39,846 bases of DNA from Candidatus Curtissbacteria bacterium RIFOXYA1_FULL_41_14 (GCA_001775095.1 MFCA01000001.1:1-39846), one strand, 5' to 3'. Shown: positions 5,234-39,846, numbered from the stretch's first letter. Notes: generated by a model from the sequence alone, not told the origin. Numbers and translations: made by a program.

Positions 5234-5473
5234 ATGATTACCACACTAGTACCCATAGGAAACTCAAGAGGGATACGAATACCTAAACCATTACTTAACG
5301 AAAGCGGAATCAGCGATCAGGTGGAGTTGAAGGTAAAAAGGGGCGAAATACGTATCATTGCAGTCCCCAAAAAAAGCCGCTTGGTCACAGCAACTCTGCT
5401 TCTTTCAGAAAAAACTCTTGCAACAGACTGGAATAAAGCTGAAGAGGACGAGGCATGGGCAAGTTTGCAGTAG
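5234..5473 (+). CDS. AbrB/MazE-like antitoxin
   Basis: MITTLVPIGNSRGIRIPKPLLNESGISDQVELKVKRGEIRI; overlaps the downstream MazF-like ORF. Confidence 0.9.
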   Translation: MITTLVPIGNSRGIRIPKPLLNESGISDQVELKVKRGEIRIIAVPKKSRLVTATLLLSEKTLATDWNKAEEDEAWASLQ

Positions 5474-5787
5474 GCGAAGTTGTCTTAGTTTCGTTTCCCT
5501 TCTCAAATTTACAAGGCCAGAAGATAAGACCGGCGCTGATTTTGGCAAAAGTTGAGTTTGGTGACCTGATCTTATGCCAAATAACCTCAAAATCTTATTC
5601 AAGTAAACTCGCAATCCGTATCAGCCCCAATAATTTCACAAAAGGAAGTTTACCGATCATAAGCTATGTAAGACCGGATAAATTATTCACAGCGGATTCG
5701 TCGATTATTAAAAAAACTGCAGGCCAATTAGGACCTATTGCCACTAATTCAATTTTGAAAAGCGTTCGCAAGCTCTTTACGTCTTGA
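5455..5787 (+). CDS. MazF/PemK-like toxin
   Basis: FAVGEVVLVSFPFSNLQGQKIRPALILA; overlaps the antitoxin gene. Confidence 0.9.
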   Translation: MGKFAVGEVVLVSFPFSNLQGQKIRPALILAKVEFGDLILCQITSKSYSSKLAIRISPNNFTKGSLPIISYVRPDKLFTADSSIIKKTAGQLGPIATNSILKSVRKLFTS

Positions 5788-14031: not shown

Positions 14032-14146
14032 GTCGGACTCCGAAAATTGTTTAATGATAACAATGAGGAGGTCATCGACTCTGAAGAGTCCCAGACTCTG
14101 AAGAGCTAAATTGCTAGCGTTTCAGCTTGAGGCGTTAAATAATTAC
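14032..14146 (+). repeat. Cassette-boundary repeat copy A
   Basis: TTTAATGATAACAATGAGGAGGTCATCGACTCTGAAGAGTCCCAGACTCTGAAGAGCTAAATTGCTAGCGTTTCAGCTTGAGGC; shared with B, C and D. Confidence 0.85.
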
Positions 14147-14198
14147 TTAAAAGTAAATTTCCTTATAGCCATTGACAAATAAACCTCATGAATTTATT

Positions 14199-14830: not shown

Positions 14831-15796
14831 ATGGATATATTCTACCCAGTTGCGTGGTTTACTCACTGGTTTAATTTCAGTGTACTTAGATTAGAAGAAA
14901 GCTCCTTATTAGGTGAAGCAGTTAATTTCTTTATTTATGACAGTATAAAGATATTTATTCTTCTTTTCGGAATTATTTTTTTAGTGACTTTTATCCGCTC
15001 ATATTTACCTCCTGAAAAAATTAAAAAGATCTTGGCCAGAAGATTTGAATTTATCGGCAACATCTTAGCTGCCCTCTTTGGTATTATCACTCCGTTTTGT
15101 TCATGCTCTGCCGTACCCTTATTCATTGGATTTGTAGAAAGCGGTGTGCCTTTAGGAGTTACTTTTTCCTATCTTATCTCTGCGCCAATGGTTAATGAAG
15201 TAGCAGCAGTAATGCTCTTGGGGCTTTTTGGACCTACTATAGCCTTTCTTTATATAGCTTCAGGAGTAACTATTGCTATTATTGTTGGCTTTATCTTAGG
15301 AAAGCTAAAACTTGAACATCTAGTTGAAGATTATGTCTGGAAAATTAAAGCAGGAGATGACAATCAGGTAATTAAACTGACAATTAAAGAAAGGGTTGTG
15401 GACTCGCTTCGTTATACCAAAGACTTAGTTAAAAAGGTTTTTCCTTATGTACTTCTGGGAGTTGGGTTGGGTTCTATTATTCATGGCTATGCTCCTGAAA
15501 ATTTGCTTACTCAGATTGCAGGAAAGAATAATTTGTTTGCTGTCCCCATAGCCGTGGCAATTGGAGTACCACTTTATTCTAATGCTGCCGGAACAATTCC
15601 TATCGTTAAATCCTTAATTGAAAAAGGATTACCTCTTGGTACTTCTCTGTCTTTTATGATGGCTGTTACGGCTCTTTCCTTGCCGGAAATGATTATTTTG
15701 AGAAAGGTCTTAAAGCCAAAACTACTTGCTATTTATATAACAATACTTACTTTAGGGATAATGTTTACAGGATTTGTTTTTAACACTATTTTGTAA
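14831..15796 (+). CDS. Permease (UPF0718/ArsP-like)
   Basis: TPFCSCSAVPLFIGFVESGVPLGVTFSYLISAPMVNEVA; second half VPLYSNAAGTIPIVKSLIEKGLPLGTSLSFMMA. Confidence 0.9.
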   Translation: MDIFYPVAWFTHWFNFSVLRLEESSLLGEAVNFFIYDSIKIFILLFGIIFLVTFIRSYLPPEKIKKILARRFEFIGNILAALFGIITPFCSCSAVPLFIGFVESGVPLGVTFSYLISAPMVNEVAAVMLLGLFGPTIAFLYIASGVTIAIIVGFILGKLKLEHLVEDYVWKIKAGDDNQVIKLTIKERVVDSLRYTKDLVKKVFPYVLLGVGLGSIIHGYAPENLLTQIAGKNNLFAVPIAVAIGVPLYSNAAGTIPIVKSLIEKGLPLGTSLSFMMAVTALSLPEMIILRKVLKPKLLAIYITILTLGIMFTGFVFNTIL

Positions 15797-15873
15797 GAAG
15801 TTAGAACTTCTTTTTTCTTTTATATAAAGGCAGGATACCGAATCTTGCCGTCCCTGATAGACTATAGGATTAT

Positions 15874-16083
15874 GAGCGAGTGATGTCTTCGACTCTGAGG
15901 GATGAGTCCTCAGGTCTTCGACGGTGAGCTCAGTCGAATCGCTCAGACTCGAATGAGGTACGGGGCTCGAACCTACACGAGCTTTTTAATGATAATTCTA
16001 AGGAGGTCATCGACTCTGAAGAGTCTCAGACTCAGAAGAGCTAAATTGCTAGCGTTGCAACTGGAAACTCTTAACAATTACCT
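15874..16083 (+). repeat. Cassette-boundary repeat copy B (long form)
   Basis: Shares about 76 identical nt with copy D (GATGTCTTCGACTCTGAGGGATGAGTCC...CTCGAATGAGG), then the common core. Confidence 0.88.
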
Positions 16084-16138
16084 GAGCAAACCTACTTTTG
16101 TTATATGACAAAATATATGCTTATATGGTAATATACCA

Positions 16139-16680: not shown

Positions 16681-16802
16681 ATCGGACTACAAGATTTGTT
16701 CAATGATAACAATGAGGAGGTCATCGACTCTGAAGAGTCTCAGACTCAGAAGAGCTAAATTGCTAGCGATGCAACTTGAGACATTGGAAAATCACCTAAA
16801 TA
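16681..16802 (+). repeat. Cassette-boundary repeat copy C
   Basis: TTCAATGATAACAATGAGGAGGTCATCGACTCTGAAGAGTCTCAGACTCAGAAGAGCTAAATTGCTAGCGATGCAACTTGAG. Confidence 0.85.
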
Positions 16803-18064: not shown

Positions 18065-18243
18065 TGAGCGGGTGATGTCTTCGACTCTGAGGGATGAGTC
18101 CTCAGGTCTTCGACGGTGAGCTCAGTCGAATCGCTCAGACTCGAATGAGGTTCTGGGCTCGAACCTGCACGAGCTGTTTAATGATAGCAATGATGAGGCT
18201 AAATTACTAGCGTTTCAGCTGGAAGCTTTAAGCAGCCACCTCA
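18065..18243 (+). repeat. Cassette-boundary repeat copy D (lacks the internal ~36-nt insert)
   Basis: GAGCTGTTTAATGATAGCAATGATGAGGCTAAATTACTAGCGTTTCAGCTGGAAGC = ELFNDSNDEAKLLAFQLEA in frame. Confidence 0.85.
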
Positions 18244-31116: not shown

Positions 31117-31605
31117 CTACTGTTTAAATAATAAAACCTTCAGTGGTTTGAGGCCCGCATAGTCATGGTGTCTCAGATCCGGTTTATATGGTGTATTATT
31201 TAGACCAATCGGTTTAGTCAGCTTTAACGCGACCTGAATTTTTTCGGTAAGCGGTAAAGTATTATCTGTAATACTTTCCCAGCCGGAACAAGTTTCAGGG
31301 TTCGAAAAGCTCACTCCTATGCTTGTACCATCAGAAATTACTTTAATCGCATTACCAACAACTAATGGTCTATTCAAAACGTGATCCCATCCTAGTGTAA
31401 TTCCATTCCAGTACATTGAAGCTGTATATTTTTTATCTGCCGTCTCCCCGACTAACATGATGTGTTGTGCCCCATGCTTCTTTAAACCTTCCACCGCCTT
31501 TTTGAGAAGTCTAAGCCCACCTTCCTTCACAATAAGTCTTCTTGCTTGGTCCGTCGGGAAAAATGGTTCCAATGATCTGAAAAAGCTTTCAATTATTACT
31601 GGCAT
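31117..31605 (-). CDS. Hypothetical protein
   Basis: Single ORF without a recognised family. Confidence 0.55.
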   Translation of the reverse strand: MPVIIESFFRSLEPFFPTDQARRLIVKEGGLRLLKKAVEGLKKHGAQHIMLVGETADKKYTASMYWNGITLGWDHVLNRPLVVGNAIKVISDGTSIGVSFSNPETCSGWESITDNTLPLTEKIQVALKLTKPIGLNNTPYKPDLRHHDYAGLKPLKVLLFKQ

Positions 31606-31679: not shown

Positions 31680-31705
31680 CTATCCGGAACTTTAGTGAAG
31701 GATAG
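31680..31705. repeat. Small hairpin element CTATCC-GGAACTTTAGTGAA-GGATAG
   Basis: Third member of the GTAACTTTAGTG hairpin family; compensatory arm changes. Confidence 0.7.
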
Positions 31706-31723
31706 TGCCGCTACGTAGACGTT

Positions 31724-31742
31724 GTTAGAACTTTTTGGGTTC
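31724..31742 (-). repeat. Gene-end repeat R1 (GAACCCAAAAAGTTCTAAC)
   Basis: Encodes EPKKF* of the upstream gene; same sequence as R2-R4. Confidence 0.8.
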
Positions 31743-32840
31743 AACAAGCCTTGCAACTGCCGACAAGTTTGTAACTTCCATGTCAACTTCTCTTATATCT
31801 GCAGATACTTTTTCCGAAGACCTTTTAGAACCCTGCCGTTGGGCATGGAGTGGAGTTACTCTGTCAATTCCGCGGACACTTTCTACTTGTCTTGGACTAT
31901 CATCTACATACACAAATGGAACCTCTGGAATTTCTTTAACTAGTTTCTCAATGATGGGGTTCTTCCTGCCTCTCGTATAAAGCAGTATTTCGTCAGGGAT
32001 TCGTCTCCCTTTTGCAGAGACTGCCTCAATTCCTCTTAGTACTTTTTCTAGCTGAAATCCCGCTTCTCCGAAAGTTGCAACAATAAATCTAACGTTTTCG
32101 GATAAATCAAAATGATCAATCTCGTCAGCTGGTATATTTGATCCTGTCATTGTTCGCATATAAATAGACCATACTTCTTCATCTACACCGCTAGGTTTCT
32201 CATTAAAGCGGACACTTGTAGATTGATTGGCAAGTTCGACAAAATATTTCTTCGGAGAACCGTTTTTGGTTTTTTCTTTGACGCCGATCTGGTCTTGTAG
32301 CTTTGGCAGAACAGTTTCGATCAAATAAGTACGAGCAAGACTTTCATCTTCTTGACTACCAGTCAAAGCATTTAAGAAATCAGGTGTTTTTGATTTCTGA
32401 ATAGACTTGACCAGTATGGAAGTTGCAACAAGTTCCAGTAATGGCGAATAGTGTTCTGGGTGTGTTCCGTTGACCGGGAGCACTCTTGCAGCTGCGTTTA
32501 AGGTTTTACAGGCGTTTAAAAATTTCTCACGAAGAGTTGGATTAACGTTAGGAATCAAGGATAAATATGATTTGTAGAGCCTAGGTTTTCTTTCTGTATA
32601 GGGCTCCAAAGTATCATCCCAGTCAAAAATCGCGCAAGATTCCACCTTACCAGGTGGCTTAAAAATAATTCTCCACGCTCGGGATATATCTCCCTCGTGT
32701 TCGCCAGTTATGCCTTTTATTTCTGGCAACTTTCCTTGATTAAGTTTCTCGAAAGCAGGAAGGTAAGTCCTTATAATCTCCGCTTCATTCTTAAATTGCG
32801 GCTCAGCTTCCTGGCTCTCCATAACTGAATTATAAGTCAT
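31725..32840 (-). CDS. HAD-like protein, hypothetical
   Basis: SCAIFDWDDTLEPYTERKPRLYKSY; VPFVYVDDSPRQVES. Confidence 0.65.
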   Translation of the reverse strand: MTYNSVMESQEAEPQFKNEAEIIRTYLPAFEKLNQGKLPEIKGITGEHEGDISRAWRIIFKPPGKVESCAIFDWDDTLEPYTERKPRLYKSYLSLIPNVNPTLREKFLNACKTLNAAARVLPVNGTHPEHYSPLLELVATSILVKSIQKSKTPDFLNALTGSQEDESLARTYLIETVLPKLQDQIGVKEKTKNGSPKKYFVELANQSTSVRFNEKPSGVDEEVWSIYMRTMTGSNIPADEIDHFDLSENVRFIVATFGEAGFQLEKVLRGIEAVSAKGRRIPDEILLYTRGRKNPIIEKLVKEIPEVPFVYVDDSPRQVESVRGIDRVTPLHAQRQGSKRSSEKVSADIREVDMEVTNLSAVARLVEPKKF

Positions 32841-32848
32841 TTAAATAG

Positions 32849-32861
32849 AAAAAGTTCTAAC
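32849..32861 (+). repeat. Partial gene-end repeat (AAAAAGTTCTAAC)
   Basis: 13-nt match to the 3' part of R3. Confidence 0.5.
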
Positions 32862-32929
32862 TCTTCAATTAATTCAGAGTCATGACCTCCGACTTTGGGT
32901 AGTCAAAAACTGAGGCTAAAATTGGTCTG

Positions 32930-33002
32930 TGCCGGGAGTCGGAGTCGAACCGACATAGCCCGTTTTTCAGACGGGTGCGTTGACCACCTCTGCCATCCCG
33001 GC
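32930..33002 (-). tRNA. tRNA-Phe (anticodon GAA)
   Basis: GCCGGGA/TCCCGGC acceptor; CCCGT-CTGAAAA-ACGGG anticodon arm; GTCGGTTCGACTCCGAC T-arm. Confidence 0.92.
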
Positions 33003-33123
33003 TCAATGCGGCCTCCCAAATTATACAATTTTACCCAATCACAATCTAGGACTGCGCTAATCACTTGAGTCTTTTGGAAAAAGCGCTAACATCATCATTC
33101 TACGTATCGGTACTGACCCATAG

Positions 33124-34065
33124 TTGAATATGAGTAGGGCTGGGATTACAATTCTCCTTATGAACGAAAATCAGCCGACACCGTTCGAACACGTAGACAC
33201 CCCGGATGAATTGCAATATTGGCAATTTGTTGCGGGTGATTATAGCAGACACCTAACTCTTTATTCTGCAAGACCTCCCTTTATCGGATCCAGTGGTATT
33301 CACCCCGATGCCAACTTTGAAGAACTGAGAAAATGGCTTAATGATGAAGCAAAATACAGGAAAGAAATAGCAAATTCGCCTGTTCATGAACTGCGGAGCT
33401 GTGAATTAAGTTTTAAAAAAATCATTGATTATTACTTAGAAAGAAACAAAGCCGCAGAAAGACCAACAATCGCTATGGACGTTGGAGCAATGGCGGCAAC
33501 TTCATGGATTAGGTTAGGGTGTGCTTTTCGGGAACAAATCGAGAGAGGGCAACTTTTGCTAATTGCTACAAATCGTACCTATTCTCCATACGATCAAGGA
33601 CTTGATATTCCTAAAATGCCTGATGAATTGAAAGAATTTGTTAGAGAAAACTAAGATCTAGTCCATTTTCTGGTAGCCGATGCAGATTCTTTCCCTTCCC
33701 TTGCTGTTACATTACCTGCTGGTGAATCGCTAAGAGTTATGGGGAATATAGATTTTGCCCATGAATCTGAGTCTCTTAGTAAATATTCTCCAGATCCAGA
33801 AAGAGATATACGGATTCTGGGAAGAATGATTTCCAAAAATGGGATTTATCTTTCTCACGGTGGTTTCCCGTACTCTGATCACTTGCCCGAAGATGTATGG
33901 CTTGATAATCCTCGCTTTGTAGCTGTTCGGAATGCTCACAGAAAACTAGTAAATGATTTAGAATTTACGTTAGTGACAGAAGTTGAGGAGGGTGTAAAAA
34001 GAGGGGCAGATTTGATTTATGCAGTTTTCAAAAAGCCTTGTGCGCCACCTATTGCGTTCGATTGA
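33124..34065 (+). pseudogene. Hypothetical protein gene split by one in-frame TAA (33652..33654)
   Basis: ORFs 33124..33654 and 33739..34065 share a frame, and the bases between remain open (DLVHFLVADADSFPSLAVTLPAGESLRV-M). Confidence 0.65.
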
Positions 34066-34079
34066 ACCCAAAAAGTTCT
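34064..34079 (+). repeat. Gene-end repeat R2 (GAACCCAAAAAGTTCT)
   Basis: Overlaps the TGA stop of the upstream ORF. Confidence 0.8.
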
Positions 34080-34083
34080 CCTA

Positions 34084-34680
34084 TTGTATACTTCAGGTGT
34101 GATTGAGATAAAGACAATCATTGCTGTCACAGCAGTAGGACTATCGATTATTGGTTACGCACCCTATATCCGTGACACGCTAAAGGGGAAAACAACACCA
34201 CATGTATATACGTGGTTAGTATGGGGTTTAAACGCTTCAATCGTCTTTGCACTTCAAGTGAGCGCGGGTGCAGGGGTTGGCTCATGGATTACATTAACAG
34301 TTGCGATACTTAACTTTATTGTGATCTTGCTTGGGATGAGAATAGGCAAAAAAGATATCACGAAATCAGACAAAATTTTTCTTCTTCTATCCTTTGTTGC
34401 TATATTTTTGTGGCTAATTATAAAGCAGCCCGTATTATCCGTTATCCTAGTTGTCACAATAGGTATGCTAGGTTTTGCTCCTACAATTAGAAAATCATGG
34501 AATAAACCACATTCTGAAACACTATTCTTATATGGACTCAACACGTTCAGGCATACACTGGGCTTATTTGCCCTTCAGCAGTACAGCATAGTCACATGGT
34601 TGTATCCAGCTACTTGGGTTGTCCTGAATGGATTATTTAGTCTGATGCTGATAGTTAGGCGAAAGCAACTGCAGAAGTAA
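34084..34680 (+). CDS. PQ-loop-like membrane protein
   Basis: Two-fold repeat GYAPYIRDTLKGKTTPHVYTWLVWGLN / GFAPTIRKSWNKPHSETLFLYGLN. Confidence 0.6.
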   Translation: MYTSGVIEIKTIIAVTAVGLSIIGYAPYIRDTLKGKTTPHVYTWLVWGLNASIVFALQVSAGAGVGSWITLTVAILNFIVILLGMRIGKKDITKSDKIFLLLSFVAIFLWLIIKQPVLSVILVVTIGMLGFAPTIRKSWNKPHSETLFLYGLNTFRHTLGLFALQQYSIVTWLYPATWVVLNGLFSLMLIVRRKQLQK

Positions 34681-34698
34681 GAATGTTATTTTGATTTT

Positions 34699-34717
34699 GA
34701 ACCCAAAAAGTTCTAAC
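34699..34717 (+). repeat. Gene-end repeat R3 (GAACCCAAAAAGTTCTAAC)
   Basis: Exact match to R1 over 19 nt. Confidence 0.8.
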
Positions 34718-34789
34718 GCCGTCTACAGTTCGGCACAAAACTAGACCTATAGTTGATATTCGGACTTCAATTTTGTATAATCCTCTTCT

Positions 34790-35596
34790 ATGTCTAATGC
34801 TGGTATAGAAAGAGAGTCAGAGCGTGTCGAGCAAGAACATTTTGCTACTCGGATAATTGTAGTAAAGATTGGCAGCAGCACAATCACTGAAGGTGCTACA
34901 AAAGAAAACCCGCTTAATATCCAACTCATAGAAAATATTGCTAGACAATGCAGTCACCTTTATCAAAACGGTGTCAATGTAGTAATTGTAAGTTCAGGAG
35001 CTGTGGCATGTGGACACAATCTATTGTCATCAGCTGAAGAACAAAATACACCGGACAGACAAGTAGAGGCAGTCTTTGGACAACCCACTTTAATTGGTAC
35101 TTGGGTTGGAGCTTTTAGAAAATTTGGGGTCGTTGCTGGACAAGCACTTATTACAGAAAACGACCTAGAAGAGGCAAGAAAAGTTTTGCAAAGATCATTA
35201 AAAAGCGGCGTAGTTATTGTAAATGCGAATGATGCCGTTAGCACAACAGAAATGGAGGCGTTCTTACGTTTAGCGGATAATGATAGAATGGCAGCCGAAG
35301 TTGCAGATGCCGTAGAAGCAGACACTATTTTAATACTGACTGATGTAGACGGTGTTCTTGACGAAAAAAGGCAGTTAATCGAAGACGGTTTATTGATAGA
35401 TAGCAACACAAAATTTTTTAAAGGTTCTGGTGTGGGAACTGGAGGAATGGAGTCAAAAGTTGAAGTATTAGACAATTCCGCTAAAAAGGGAATAAGAGGA
35501 ATTATTGCGAGCGCTAAGCGTGGAGATATAGTCTTAGAAATTGCAAGAGGAAAAACTCAAGGTTGCACTGTTTTTAAACCAAAACAGGATTCCTGA
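34790..35596 (+). CDS. Glutamate 5-kinase-like amino acid kinase
   Basis: IIVVKIGSSTI; VVIVSSGAVACG; VNANDAVS; LADNDRMAAEVADAVEADTILILTDVDGV; GTGGMESKVE. Confidence 0.88.
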   Translation: MSNAGIERESERVEQEHFATRIIVVKIGSSTITEGATKENPLNIQLIENIARQCSHLYQNGVNVVIVSSGAVACGHNLLSSAEEQNTPDRQVEAVFGQPTLIGTWVGAFRKFGVVAGQALITENDLEEARKVLQRSLKSGVVIVNANDAVSTTEMEAFLRLADNDRMAAEVADAVEADTILILTDVDGVLDEKRQLIEDGLLIDSNTKFFKGSGVGTGGMESKVEVLDNSAKKGIRGIIASAKRGDIVLEIARGKTQGCTVFKPKQDS

Positions 35597-35610
35597 ACCC
35601 AAAAAGTTCT
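35595..35610 (+). repeat. Gene-end repeat R4 (GAACCCAAAAAGTTCT)
   Basis: Overlaps the TGA stop of the kinase gene. Confidence 0.8.
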
Positions 35611-35780
35611 CCTTCGACTTCGCTCAGGACAAGTAGCTGTTCGATTCTCAATCAGTCTACCCTTCGACTTTGCTCAGGGTTAATAACAGTTCGGCACAAA
35701 GTTCACTAAATTCTAGGTATTGTTTAACCTTGATTTTCGGCTTCTTGACACATGATTTCAATAAAACCATAATGTAATCC

Positions 35781-36137
35781 ATGGCCGATTTAACCCTGAA
35801 GAAAATTGGAGATCTTCTTGGTAAAAAACTTAAACCAATTAGTGCCAAGCTTGATAGCCACGATGGTCAGTTTAAGTCAATTCATGCTAAATTGGACGAA
35901 CATGATAACCAGTTCAAGTCAATCCGTACCAAACTAGATAGCCATGACGGTCAGTTCAAGTCAATCCGTACCAAGCTTGATGAACACTCGGAGAAACTTG
36001 ATTCTCTTACATTAGACATGATTATGGTTCAAAAGAAAACCGATTTACTTCCCGATCTTCACAGTCTAATCAAAGACACAAAGGTAAAGGTCGATGAATT
36101 GGAGGAAAGAGTAGAGAGACTTGAGACTGCAGCCTGA
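35781..36137 (+). CDS. Coiled-coil repeat protein, hypothetical
   Basis: 14-residue repeats (S/E)HD(G/N)QFKSI(H/R)(A/T)KLD. Confidence 0.7.
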   Translation: MADLTLKKIGDLLGKKLKPISAKLDSHDGQFKSIHAKLDEHDNQFKSIRTKLDSHDGQFKSIRTKLDEHSEKLDSLTLDMIMVQKKTDLLPDLHSLIKDTKVKVDELEERVERLETAA

Positions 36138-39736: not shown

Positions 39737-39752
39737 AAATCAGGTACTAGCC

Positions 39753-39846
39753 ACTAGGAACTAGGAACTAGGAACTAGGAACTAGGAACTAGGAACTAGG
39801 AACTAGGAACTAGGAACTAGGAACTAGGAACTAGGAACTAGGAACT
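39753..39846. repeat. 7-bp tandem satellite (ACTAGGA)n running off the window end
   Basis: About 13 uninterrupted ACTAGGA units. Confidence 0.97.

Follow-up and report, generated by a model that had tools for sequence, protein, structure and literature searches.

The region at positions 31,724 to 35,610 of a chromosomal stretch from Candidatus Curtissbacteria bacterium RIFOXYA1_FULL_41_14 (MFCA01000001.1:1-39846; the whole 39,846-nt stretch is called the window here) appears to be a small gene-cassette array that is reshuffled at a short repeat core, GAACCCAAAAAGTTCT, by a putative tyrosine recombinase acting in trans. We put the probability of this reading at roughly 0.6. An earlier note on this DNA, made from the sequence alone, had proposed that modules are swapped by way of the repeat, as a recombination site or a common 3' terminus, and our results support that proposal: the gene content between repeats varies across related genomes, and single units recur with the repeat as their boundary. 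Site-specific exchange, as opposed to homologous recombination, is our inference, and so is any choice of enzyme.

A repeat core at the ends of mobile units

Four exact copies of the core lie in the window, R1 at 31727-31742 on the minus strand and R2, R3 and R4 at 34064-34079, 34699-34714 and 35595-35610 on the plus strand, bearing out the copies noticed earlier near 31724, 34064, 34699 and 35595. The whole genome (G000; 1,148,276 bases, 99.7% complete) has no other exact copy, and all four lie inside 3.9 kb. The reversed-pattern repeat that served as the control in our repeat counts gave none, and searching the window at up to 3 mismatches gave no copies beyond the four (chance expectation about 1). 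The repeat sits at or just after gene 3' ends, as had been claimed: two genes end in TGA stops that overlap the beginning of R2 (34064) and R4 (35595), the stop of a PQ-loop-like open reading frame (ORF) lies 18 nt upstream of R3, and a HAD-like ORF crosses R1, which encodes its C-terminal EPKKF*, with the TAA stop immediately beyond. The 31724 copy was correctly placed at a 3' end, but this end belongs to a minus-strand gene, so the HAD-like unit is oriented opposite to the other three. R1 and R3 do share a longer stretch, of 21 nt rather than the 19 given earlier (TTGAACCCAAAAAGTTCTAAC; 31724-31744, minus, and 34697-34717, plus). The partial repeat at 32849 is present as AAAAAGTTCTAAC (32849-32861, plus), and the further sequence recurring downstream of R3 and R4 is CAGTTCGGCACAAA (34726-34739 and 35687-35700).

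Our family sample comprised 15 genomes, the relatives being Candidatus Curtissbacteria (Microgenomates, candidate phyla radiation [CPR]), and our class sample 374 genomes, including 359 outside the family; all are assemblies, mostly metagenome-assembled genomes (MAGs), many of them from one aquifer site. With at most one mismatch, the repeat occurs in 8 of the 15 family genomes (47 matches versus 1 in the reversed control), and a 33-nt site profile gives about 3 to 14 significant sites in each of these eight but no convincing site in the remaining seven. Class-wide, only two genomes outside the family were positive, with a single copy each. Named records identify the positives as Candidatus Curtissbacteria; in addition, a Roizmanbacteria MAG has one array and a Portnoybacteria MAG one full site. 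The plasmid and phage collections gave no match to the site. Five viral contigs with a 20-mer shared a common flank and lacked the rest of the site and were counted as one chance match; single matches in KSB1, Desulfobacterales, Desulfobacteraceae, and Desulfofundulus were likewise treated as chance. An uptake sequence was rejected because the copies are too few and confined to arrays.

The sites form co-oriented clusters of direct repeats, with a core-to-core spacing of 443 to 1859 nt (median, 678; n = 32), and the interval between sites holds one gene or one toxin-antitoxin (TA) pair. Random placement relative to genes is contradicted by the confinement of the repeat to arrays and by the co-oriented ORF of at least 60 amino acids that ends at -90 to +22 of the core at 39 of 54 sites. 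The cargo includes HicA, Phd/YefM-ParE, RelB-YafQ, zeta toxin, MqsA/DUF4258, NYN, methyltransferases, and an AadA_C-domain protein; it resembles integron-type cargo, and the modules are small and rich in TA pairs. Among the ORFs scanned, which are only part of the total, no transposase or recombinase was matched inside the units, and neither was seen beside the arrays. The AadA_C match (59 bits), to the C-terminal domain of aminoglycoside adenylyltransferases, is in a protein encoded by a cassette of G002 that has a site on either side (L040, 8103-8897). The window also holds a MazE/MazF-like pair at 5234-5787, which has a close relative on the Roizmanbacteria contig that bears the array (L055, oriented 723-1276).

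The evidence for mobility comes from homologous intervals that start and stop at the core in different genomes and have different neighbors; breakpoints were deduced from divergent sequences, and few cassette families are common to several genomes. The PQ-loop unit of G000 recurs bounded by sites in G003 (L041, 7017-7667) with 81.6% identity and both neighbors different. A HicA unit in G014, G003, and G012 has three different left neighbors (upstream genes), a RelE/DUF2283 unit in G014, G011, and G012 has three different right neighbors, and site-bounded homologues of the window's kinase stand among other neighbors in G012 (68% amino acid identity) and G014 (61%). Within array zones, the ends of high-scoring segment pairs fell near the core in 8 of 18 cases versus 8.7% expected, in what is a small sample. 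Cassette DNA can also be more alike than dnaB of the same genomes, at 92.8 versus 75.1% (G004/G002), 82.2 versus 70.1% (G014/G003), and 80.9 versus 73.6% (G000/G003). At the dnaB/tRNA-Leu locus, different site-bearing units are found in five genomes (G002, G003, G004, G012, and G013), no site is found in G000, G007 to G011, or G014, and G001, G005, and G006 are little informative, with a different neighborhood or a cut at the contig end. Judged by these genome comparisons, the arrays behave as mobile gene cassettes.

Proposed recombination at the core

The core, GAACCCAAAAAGTTC(T), hardly varies at 15 to 16 positions across 53 copies, while the flanks drift. A more weakly conserved 17-nt part upstream, AAAGTTATTTTGATTYT, completes a full site of 33 nt, best conserved in the window at R3, where this part reads AATGTTATTTTGATTTT (34682-34698, plus). 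About half of the copies are accompanied by a second block, AACATCGTCTACGTGTCGGCACAAA (block 2), either directly 3' of the core or beyond a variable insert that consists of palindromic CTTCGACTTCGCTCAGGACAAG-type sequence, and a promoter-like leader, CCTATAGTTGA...TATAAT, often lies downstream of the site. In the window, block 2 stands immediately beyond R1 (AACAACGTCTACGTAGCGGCACTAT, 31702-31726, minus) and beyond R3 (AACGCCGTCTACAGTTCGGCACAAA, 34715-34739, plus); R4 is followed by a variable insert with two CTTCGACTT..GCTCAGG copies and then the block 2 end CAGTTCGGCACAAA (35611-35700, plus).

The core has the layout GAAC-CCAAAAA-GTTC, with inverted arms on either side of a 7-nt spacer, and resembles the core of a tyrosine recombinase site, although its arms are short. 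In the mechanism that we propose, a cassette would consist of one gene or TA pair, often with its own 5' promoter, and a recombination site at its 3' end, namely AAAGTTATTTTGATTYT-GAACCCAAAAAGTTCT, often followed by the palindromic insert and block 2. Cassettes would be gained, lost, and reshuffled through recombination within the invariant core, probably by conservative site-specific exchange with a tyrosine recombinase supplied in trans, strand exchange falling between GAACC(C) and AAAAAGTTC and a circular cassette serving as the intermediate. Half-sites with AAAAAGTTCTAAC alone, found at 32849 in the window and in G004 and G014, fit a crossover inside the core spacer.

Two vertically inherited Xer-type proteins are the sole tyrosine recombinases conserved across the family; this, together with the tyrosine-recombinase-like core, is why we propose exchange in trans by such an enzyme. 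The candidates are one of these two proteins or an enzyme on an element outside these assemblies; the window's own genome has no serine recombinases. A truncated second copy of one Xer-type protein, with the same C-terminal sequence, lies 3 kb from the full copy (G000:C28, 57839-58090 and 60804-61292; L101, L088).

Several observations weigh against this reading. No recombinase was found adjoining any array or specific to the site-bearing genomes, both Xer-type proteins also occur in site-free genomes, and in G002, which is site positive and 80% complete, no tyrosine recombinase was found, which may reflect incompleteness. The inverted repeat of the core is just 4 bp, short for a tyrosine recombinase site, and block 2 is absent at about half of the junctions. 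No circular cassette form and no strain-level or direct rearrangement was seen in these assemblies. Finally, the kinase (70.8 versus 76.5%) and coiled-coil (75.4 versus 76.1%) pairs are no more alike than dnaB; with some units above dnaB identity and others not, the arrays hold recent transfers plus old residents.

Recombination could instead be homologous, with natural transformation and RecA acting on the repeated 33- to 60-bp ends and the repeat itself passive. The repeat would supply the homology, and one array (L034) adjoins what its neighboring ORF sequences suggest are type IV pilus genes. However, the invariant stretch is not long enough to act as homology, and a passive 16-bp core would not stay nearly invariant between genera where the cassettes are about 80% identical. 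This difference favors recognition by a protein, and we regard passive homology as distinctly unlikely. A shared 3' regulatory signal of co-regulated genes, such as a terminator or an RNA-processing site, would explain why the sites stand at gene 3' ends. No terminator-like structure was found at the sites, nor a hairpin and U-run of the kind that would follow many genes genome-wide. A simple transcription signal after most genes, raised by the earlier note as a possible refutation, is contradicted by the 4 copies per 1.15 Mb, all in arrays, and such a signal would leave the swapping of units with breaks at the core unexplained and is contradicted by the recurrence of cassettes. We give this explanation hardly any credence.

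tRNA genes as landmarks of the arrays

Five genomes (that of the window, G003, G004, G011, and G012) have arrays beside tRNA-Phe, and at least two have them at tRNA-Leu(CAA). The 3' end of block 2, CGGCAC, is the same ending as that of these tRNAs. In G004 the end of tRNA-Leu continues into a cassette leader (CTCGGCAC-AAGACCTATAGTTGA), and the other end carries the block-2-like AACATCGTCTAAAAACCGGCAG. The tRNA-Phe (GAA) of the window (32929-33002, minus) lies between the minus-strand and plus-strand arrays. The half-site at 32849, on the 3' side of this tRNA and between it and the HAD-like ORF, is the exception to the direct orientation of sites; G003 and G004 have equivalent inverted sites on the 3' side of their tRNA-Phe. 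From these junction sequences, tRNA 3' ends may be entry points for cassettes.

A rival explanation is tandem accretion, in which elements integrate into tRNA-Phe or tRNA-Leu 3' termini and the GAACCCAAAAAGTTCT core is accessory to the attachment site. The tRNA-linked arrays, the shared CGGCAC ending, the G004 junctions, and tandem tRNA 3'-end fragments nearby all speak for it. Insertion at a tRNA 3' end with a duplicated end would suit tRNA-Leu of G004 but not the arrays that lack a tRNA. On the other hand, the DNA fetched around the arrays at gyrB, por, and ftsZ contains no tRNA, the homology of several cassettes begins immediately after the core with block 2 absent, and no integrase lies beside the tRNAs. 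Known tandem accretion of mobilizable elements at tRNA genes is similar in its location at two array loci, tRNA-Phe and tRNA-Leu, and in its tRNA 3'-end-like junctions; it differs in that the units here are single genes with no integrase gene and several arrays lie away from tRNAs. We consider it rather unlikely that accretion accounts for the arrays in place of exchange at the core.

Two further observations concern these junctions. Tandem fragments resembling tRNA 3' ends (..TTCGACTCCCACC..GGCAC) follow tRNA-Leu and tRNA-Phe in L153, L155, L161, L041, and L038, as if by serial integrations. At 15799-15808 of the window, just past the end of a permease gene at 15796, GTTAGAACTT resembles the inverted half-site beside tRNA-Phe.

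Relation to known systems and other features of the window

Clusters of attC sites without an integrase (CALINs) are described in the integron literature (PMC8618304, PMC9668308), and the CPR is absent among the phyla listed for integrons (PMC8618304). Like a degenerate or divergent integron whose integrase has been lost or lies elsewhere, the arrays consist of tandem, co-oriented one-gene cassettes with a 3' site, carry TA and AadA-like cargo, have no adjoining integrase, and have sites that are conserved at their ends and variable and palindromic in their center. Unlike attC, which is folded and has R and L boxes, the site is a short, sequence-conserved core of a double-strand type. Seven sites folded on both strands gave mostly z scores of 0 to -1.7, not beyond shuffled sequences, the exception being a neighboring hairpin in L041, and no RYYYAAC...GTTRRRY box pair was found flanking the site. 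Four representative recombinases were all below the TIGR02249 cutoff for IntI (best, 108.7 versus 265 bits); a CALIN, by definition, has no IntI nearby. The cassettes here often have their own promoter and lie in CPR hosts. We think a CALIN origin improbable.

The dif modules of Acinetobacter are small, rich in TA pairs, and recombined in trans by host Xer proteins at alternating, inversely oriented sites (PMC13141974). Divergent modules of this kind, with a host XerC/XerD-type pair, dif-like sites, and one gene each, would match the size and cargo found here as well as the two Xer-type recombinases, which occur in nearly every family genome and are the sole candidates in the window's own genome. 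However, the pdif sites are 28 bp long, have XerC/XerD arms, alternate inversely, and are carried on Acinetobacter plasmids, whereas the sites here are chromosomal direct repeats whose core lacks ATAA-N6-TTAT arms, and site-free genomes carry the same enzymes. A dif-like ATAA-N6-TTATGTNAA is absent from the window's own genome, and its count in the family is no higher than that of the control; with no consistent result from this search, the host dif was not located. This explanation is unlikely, although it has a real chance of being right.

By this comparison the array works like an integron, but it has another site and lacks the integron enzyme, which points to a gene-shuffling system not yet described for these bacteria; open full texts (subscription papers and preprints aside) gave no account of an integron or cassette system in Patescibacteria, CPR, Curtissbacteria, or Microgenomates. 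Tentatively, and at somewhat less than even odds, we suggest that it is a CPR cassette capture system independent of integrons and dif modules, with a new class of short site (GAAC-CCAAAAA-GTTC) and a dedicated or co-opted tyrosine recombinase. Its single-gene cassettes, with TA pairs and aminoglycoside-adenylyltransferase-like genes among them, would be shuffled among Curtissbacteria genera and would now and then reach Roizmanbacteria and Portnoybacteria. CPR genomes are tiny, and little is known of how these bacteria gain genes. If the suggestion is true, integron-style shuffling evolved more than once, or host Xer is used beyond Acinetobacter plasmids. The site would also be a simple marker for mobile cargo, such as TA pairs and resistance-like genes, in CPR genomes, and offers a testable 16-bp substrate.

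The minus-strand cassette ending at R1 is the 371-amino-acid HAD-like ORF (31725-32840), for which no Pfam match supports the label at an E value of <0.1, and "HAD-like" is used as a name only. Beyond R1, a 162-amino-acid ORF (31117-31605, minus) with no Pfam match may be the second unit of the array on that strand. On the plus strand, a split ORF (33124-34065) has an in-frame TAA at 33652-33654, after which the frame stays open as far as the TGA overlapping R2; it has no homologue among the fetched loci. The PQ-loop-like membrane protein cassette (34080-34698; ORF, 34084-34680) likewise keeps its label as a name only, the sole match being a weak, subthreshold one to DUF7536. The amino acid kinase gene (PF00696, 34790-35596, plus) is preceded by a promoter-like TTGATA-17-TATAAT (34753-34781, plus) with the recurring CCTATAGTTGA leader, apparently the cassette's own promoter. 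Beyond R4 lies a coiled-coil ORF (35781-36137, plus), homologues of which end at sites in G002 and G012. In an Rfam scan, only tRNA passed its threshold.

Elsewhere in the window, a different repeat (GGTCATCGACTCTGAAGAGTCTCAGACTCAGAAGAGCTAAATTGCTAGCG...) stands between unrelated genes at 14033-14151, 15873-16086, 16682-16800, and 18065-18231; these genes include a BrnT/BrnA-looking pair and one for a 3-dehydroquinate synthase, and the region is possibly a second, unrelated array. A tandem 7-bp repeat, AGGAACT, occupies 39742-39846 and reaches the window end.

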